A DNA stretch of 39,311 nt from Dehalococcoidia bacterium (lineage in GTDB: Bacteria > Chloroflexota > Dehalococcoidia > Lucifugimonadales > UBA3495), in the NCBI GenBank assembly GCA_002724585.1, contig PBPE01000106.1, positions 1 through 39,311 on the forward strand, written 5' to 3'. Numbering within the stretch: the stretch's first letter is position 1; every line of letters begins with the position of its first letter. Below the pieces are notes generated by a model. It saw only the letters and a list, made by a program, of their open reading frames with translations, was not told where the DNA came from and made no database searches. The translations under genes were made by a program, and so were the position numbers. This document shows positions 38,846-39,223 of this stretch, piece after piece.

Positions 38846-38935
38846 GGAGAGGTGGCAGAGCGGACGAATGCGCCGGTCTCGAAAACCGGTATACGGTCAA
38901 ACGTATCGAGGGTTCGAATCCCTCCCTCTCCGCCA
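38846..38935 (+). tRNA. tRNA-Ser (anticodon CGA)
   Basis: Complete 90-nt class II tRNA with encoded CCA. Acceptor GGAGAGG pairs with CCTCTCC (38925-38931); discriminator G, then CCA 38933-38935. The anticodon stem CCGGT/ACCGG encloses loop CTCGAAA with anticodon CGA at 38880-38882, reading UCG. The long variable arm has stem ATACG/CGTAT (38891-38906). The T arm is GAGGG, TTCGAAT, CCCTC (38908-38924). Class II shape plus anticodon fixes serine. It has its own promoter and terminator. Confidence 0.98.
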
Positions 38936-38938
38936 TAT

Positions 38939-39121
38939 TTAAGCACGAAATGACCCCCAAACGTAATATCTGGGGGTCTTTCTTTTTGGGTCAATCCGAA
39001 GGAACCACTGGCAAAGTTGTTCAAAGGCGTCCCCCCGAACTTTTGTGTTGTTCGGGTTTTCCGGAAGGCTTTGCAGCAACGATCCAAAACTGTCGATTTG
39101 TTCAACCAGACCGGTAGTCAT
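38939..39121 (-). pseudogene. N-terminal remnant of a restriction/helicase-type protein, truncated at tRNA-Ser
   Basis: A 60-codon frame opens at ATG 39121, with GGTGAT about 8 nt upstream. Residues about 12-45 (FGSLLQSLPENPN, then RGDAFEQLCQWFLRIDP) match the opening of large DEAD/DEAH helicases with an N-terminal Mrr-like nuclease domain, where RGxxFExxCxWFLxxDP is followed by a VWLW segment and hundreds more residues. Here the match ends at about 38988, the edge of the tRNA-Ser terminator; the last 15 codons are just the terminator and spacer read backwards. I infer a deletion or excision scar of an island beside the tRNA gene. The family call is from memory of the motif, not a search. Confidence 0.6.
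38952..38987 (+). terminator. Intrinsic terminator after tRNA-Ser
   Basis: GACCCCCA (38952-38959) pairs with TGGGGGTC (38971-38978), 11-nt loop, followed by TTTCTTTTT (38979-38987). Plus-strand orientation. Confidence 0.9.
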
Positions 39122-39223
39122 ACTTAATCACCAGTTCCCTGATTACCAAATATTATACATGGCTCGCAACACCAGTTGTCGCACGTTTTAGTTAGCGGTA
39201 ATATGTCGGCATTAGGTATCACT

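Follow-up and report, generated by a model that had tools for sequence, protein, structure and literature searches.

The type ISP restriction enzymes LlaBIII (PDB 4XQK) and LlaGI, the domain order of which has been described (PMC4666363), carry about 45 N-terminal residues, in the order FxxLL...RGxxFExxxxWFLxxDP, that lead up to and open the Mrr-family nuclease domain. The same residues, in the same order, are found in a short frame near the right-hand end of the window, by which we mean the whole of contig C95 (39,311 bp), from an assembly of 2.1 Mb in 125 contigs that is 72% complete. In contrast to these enzymes, the stub has no nuclease catalytic residues, helicase, methyltransferase or target recognition domain. 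The best named match is a Mrr nuclease-DEAD/DEAH helicase of a Rhodococcus plasmid (WP_064689746.1, L008), with 36% identity over residues 9–55; it belongs to the subfamily of the relative L071 described below but, unlike the stub, it is intact at 1201 amino acids and plasmid-borne. The other closely related system is the tRNA-targeted island of the Islander type, of which half-tRNA copies are the textbook signature (PMC4383910); the stub resembles such islands in its place just behind a tRNA gene, one at which insertions occur in relatives, with crossovers that start in the anticodon loop.

The frame, which runs on the minus strand over positions 38939–39121, opens with ATG and encodes 60 amino acids (MTTGLVEQIDSFGSLLQSLPENPNNTKVRGDAFEQLCQWFLRIDPKRKTPRYYVWGSFRA). 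Taken alone, it gave no match in Pfam, PADLOC or NCBIfam, because it is too short, and tblastn against plasmids returned the Rhodococcus helicase as the one named match (E = 0.01). A profile built from 10 N-terminal sequences of the helicase family, with the window sequence left out (profile A1), was used to search 393 genomes of the class, and it retrieved the window frame for its own genome at E = 8.9e-6. The frame scored 28.7 bits with this profile, compared with 8.9 bits for the best of 2000 shuffled versions, and no second frame among the 588 of the window appeared in the top matches. Cutting the frame after DP still left 25–26 bits, and the signal therefore lies in codons 1–45. The nearest relative of full-length type, in G417 (L071/L094), reads KGDAFELLCKWFLENDP where the stub reads RGDAFEQLCQWFLRIDP; it carries the Pfam domains Mrr_cat_2, ResIII/DEAD and Helicase_C, matches LlaBIII in the PDB (4xqk) with E 3e-84, and leaves its contig at 658 amino acids. 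These comparisons confirm the homology of the frame to the type ISP-like family (Mrr nuclease plus SF2 helicase), and the original prediction, which had read the frame as the opening of an Mrr-like/DEAD-box helicase, named the right family on the evidence of both the independent profile and the domains of the G417 relative.

Past codon 45 the homology is over: the Mrr nuclease core, SF2 helicase and methyltransferase domains of a functional member were not found, and nothing else of the enzyme was detected in the assembly at its 72% completeness. Scans of viral contigs with the stub and with the N-terminus of L071 gave no match. Several weaker matches were discarded. Those to formamidopyrimidine-DNA glycosylase in the PDB (E 0.75) are at the level of chance; two Omnitrophota loci matching IDPKRKTP do so by chance in the tail encoded by the terminator, and their proteins read as carbon-starvation-protein-like membrane proteins; and a chance match to PKRKTPRF in G031 belongs to an FAD/Fe-S oxidoreductase-like protein.

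Table 1. Features at the right-hand end of the window, with the basis for each assignment.
Feature	Position	Strand	Basis or remark
tRNA-Ser (anticodon CGA)	38846..38935	+	ARAGORN; in 10 relatives, too, VOC and Fur genes are kept to the left of this tRNA
tRNA trailer: box AAGCACGAAA and hairpin plus T-run resembling an intrinsic terminator	38936..38988	+	Sequence and fold
Tail of the open frame without homology (codons 46–60 and stop), antisense of terminator	38939..38986	-	Profile re-scoring after cutting the tail; sequence and fold
5' remnant (codons 1–45) of a restriction gene for a type ISP-like Mrr nuclease/SF2 helicase	38987..39121	-	Profile and shuffle tests; alignment with L071, L008, L078, L053 and L081
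36-bp promoter-like sequence, TTGTCG-17 nt-TAATAT	39176..39211	+	One other copy in the genome, 34/36
Divergent frame opening with MTEDNRNITPRTDSSISRRQEDLINRGLE..., truncated where the contig ends	39224..39310	+	Open reading frame; no Pfam match

The features of the junction are collected in Table 1. The residues DP are codons 44–45 and occupy positions 38987–38992; homology stops there and the frame continues into the terminator of tRNA-Ser(CGA), read in antisense, precisely the cut at the tRNA terminator that had been claimed from the sequence alone. The terminator has the stem CCCCCA/TGGGGG followed by TCTTTCTTTTT, folds with approximately -20 kcal/mol, and has a T-run that ends near 38988; a simple terminator scan overlooked it because its loop exceeds 8 nt. 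Within the tail, V-W at aligned positions 54–55 agrees with the family, but the match is worth only about 2.6 bits and falls inside the hairpin, with W in the stem and V in the loop, and we treat it as chance. The G+C content of the stub is 0.50 against 0.43 in the window, a weak contrast over only 134 bp. At the other end of the frame, the native-looking start and ribosome site that had been reported fared differently: the start codon is real, but the ribosome site is a weak GGTG stretch and the promoter, a TATAAT upstream of the frame at which a consensus promoter scan listed nothing, is not strong.

The relatives compared at tRNA-Ser(CGA) are members of the same bacterial family, and in the family searches the window's own genus, g1, is represented by one genome. 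Left of the tRNA gene, the conserved flank includes not only the genes given in Table 1 but also queA, at the sole locus where it is in reach, whereas to the right the genes are nearly all unshared among relatives. In genus g5, the tRNA and the next conserved gene are 78 bp, 0.9, 2.2 or 4.3 kb apart, with unrelated genes between, among them a Phd/ParE-type toxin–antitoxin pair in G026. This right-hand gene was rejected as a means of closing the gap in the window's genome, where it lies on contig C82 and has no adjacent tRNA. Across relatives the left flank is thus conserved and the right flank variable, and in this bacterial family as a whole tRNA-Ser(CGA) is a hot spot for insertion.

The original prediction had proposed that the locus be compared across related genomes, and other cargo was indeed present at the same spot. 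In G009, a tyrosine integrase lies 150 bp behind tRNA-Ser(CGA) and is followed by type III Res/Mod genes, a Schlafen AlbA_2 protein and a UvrD/GajB-like helicase (L098, G009:C4:320300-332300), a defence island at the very tRNA beside which the window carries its stub. An integrase follows tRNA-Ser(CGA) in G015 too, and in the stretch examined in G010 there is just an integrase C-terminal piece behind tRNA-Ser. Displaced half-tRNA copies, which start at or next to the anticodon loop and reach the 3' end, were found in G014 (58 bp, 97%), G034 (58 bp, 93%) and G029 (63 bp, 98%). That the slot right of tRNA-Ser is variable in this family, and that integrative elements enter and leave it, is well supported; the integrases, the half-tRNA copies and the variable right flank also support the proposal that this tRNA serves as an integration site in relatives.

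The locus is probably best explained as the 5' remnant of a dead restriction gene in the variable slot behind tRNA-Ser, joined by a deletion to the terminator. The separate parts of this statement differ in strength: the remnant itself is all but certain, that it sits in a variable slot is likely, and an integrase-driven scar is possible. A type ISP-like gene, encoding a single chain that has an Mrr-family nuclease at its start and an SF2 helicase next, would most likely have arrived as cargo right of tRNA-Ser, because integrative elements enter and leave the DNA there in this family. A deletion would have brought codon 45 up against the terminator T-run of tRNA-Ser(CGA) and removed the nuclease catalytic part, the helicase and all beyond, and it seems most likely that the cargo at this slot was lost piecemeal. 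The leftover, a leader region ahead of the nuclease core, should do nothing. Against this explanation, the window contains neither an integrase nor a half-tRNA copy, its junction falls past the terminator and outside the tRNA where crossovers take place, two similar stubs of other genomes have no tRNA around them, and sequence absent from the assembly may hold the rest of the gene or of the element.

A narrower version of the same explanation makes the locus the scar of an integrase-borne defence island, the entry of which at tRNA-Ser would have supplied the 3' half of the tRNA, the box and the terminator, and which would later have been lost save for the tRNA-proximal edge carrying the stub. 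Its strength lies in the relatives: the integrase-bearing loci of G009 and G015, the integrase remnant of G010 and the half-tRNA copies of the three genomes named above all argue for it, as do arm-like tandem repeats 56–60 bp past tRNA ends in relatives, which is where the stub begins here. The window itself speaks against it. Unlike islands of the Islander type, it contains no integrase, the PF00589 matches in the genome being confined to contigs C71 and C29, although an island may run past the contig end; no displaced 3' tRNA-Ser fragment was found in the window or elsewhere in the genome, at its completeness of 72%, and the window also shows no arm-like tandem repeat. The junction of stub and terminator falls approximately 50 bp past the tRNA end, behind the terminator; integrase crossovers fall within the tRNA. 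Nor can the box and hairpin be used as a marker of one side of an island, or as proof of an empty attachment site, because both trail intact as well as displaced tRNA copies; a comparable box and hairpin lie 3' of tRNA-Trp on contig C2 of the window's own genome, and also 3' of many tRNAs in relatives. We consider this version plausible, but lean slightly against it. Of the earlier reading of the stub as an island residue, then, the truncation and the variable slot are supported, and the integrase-borne origin is possible.

Alternatively, the presence of the gene next to the tRNA might have had nothing to do with site-specific integration, and a deletion at random might have happened to end at the terminator. 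Isolated N-terminal stubs of the same family occur in two relatives with no tRNA nearby: that of G070 (L053, G070:C65:3639-3767) contains two in-frame stops, and that of G258 (L081, G258:C16:10741-10905) stops after VWLF, beside an IS3-like transposase remnant. Decay alone can therefore yield such a stub, and a middle fragment of such a restriction gene in G002 points the same way. However, the family demonstrably uses this locus as a hot spot for insertion, and we rather doubt plain decay of this kind.

A third alternative is that the metagenome-derived contig is an assembly chimera, in which the terminator marks a false join to a stub region from elsewhere or from another strain. The window makes up one entire contig of a fragmented and incomplete assembly, and its end lies only 190 bp past the stub; however, neither the terminator nor any sequence of more than approximately 55 bp around the join is repeated in the genome, and we regard a chimera as very improbable. 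Finally, a small gene of 60 codons that still functions, for which the intact start, the open frame and the upstream TATAAT might be cited, is hardly credible, given that no frame of such size is conserved as an intact small gene in 59 relatives or in the 393 genomes of the class, a check that the original prediction had called for, that the last 15 codons are the antisense of the terminator, and that the other stubs are broken and have different ends.

The remnant of a dead restriction gene behind tRNA-Ser thus adds one well-located example of the turnover of anti-phage restriction genes behind tRNA genes; the general picture is unchanged, for neither the remnant nor the type of hot spot at which it lies is out of the ordinary.

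Some further observations were made in the course of these comparisons. The G417 relative (L094 4425-6398, G417:C92) lies approximately 2 kb past a tmRNA, and an SmpB-like frame precedes it; tmRNA is another classical island target, and this position also speaks for the favoured explanation.

Behind tRNA genes of the family we also found a tandem repeat, AATGTCCACGGATTGTCCACGAACTTTT, with 26 occurrences in 14 of 50 family genomes and none in a reversed control. Its 11-bp unit occurs as the variants TGTCCACGGAT and TGTCCACGAAC. Where ARAGORN found a tRNA on the same strand, the repeat begins 59–62 bp (once 73 bp) past its 3' end, the tRNAs being tRNA-Ser, -Thr, -Leu and -Lys, and it is mostly preceded by a GGCACGAAA-like box and a hairpin. 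The repeat loci (L123-L148) include G031:C39, G029:C37, G002:C61, G019:C137 and G070:C78. The same place is filled by other tandem units in other genomes, and in the window's genome TTTCCGGACTT is present twice behind tRNA-Trp. In G034, an integrase C-terminal piece is followed, at a distance of approximately 30 bp, by a copy of the repeat, and a displaced half-tRNA comes 100 bp after that copy. The tandem repeats behind tRNAs are possibly arm-type sites of integrases. A more elaborate proposal, which we think unlikely, is that the GGCACGAAA-like box, the hairpin and the 11-bp tandem repeat, the last at a fixed 56–60 bp, together form the attachment arm of integrative elements that switch tRNA targets while keeping their arm sites and terminator; tRNA-Ser of the window would then be an arm-less scar, its restriction cargo cut to a stub of 45 codons. 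The module of box, hairpin and tandem repeat, common to several tRNA isotypes, may deserve a study of its own.

The second copy of the 36-bp promoter-like sequence (Table 1) is located at G000:C2:4180-4215; the two copies share no flanking similarity, and the second lies 3' of tRNA-Trp, in the same orientation to the tRNA.
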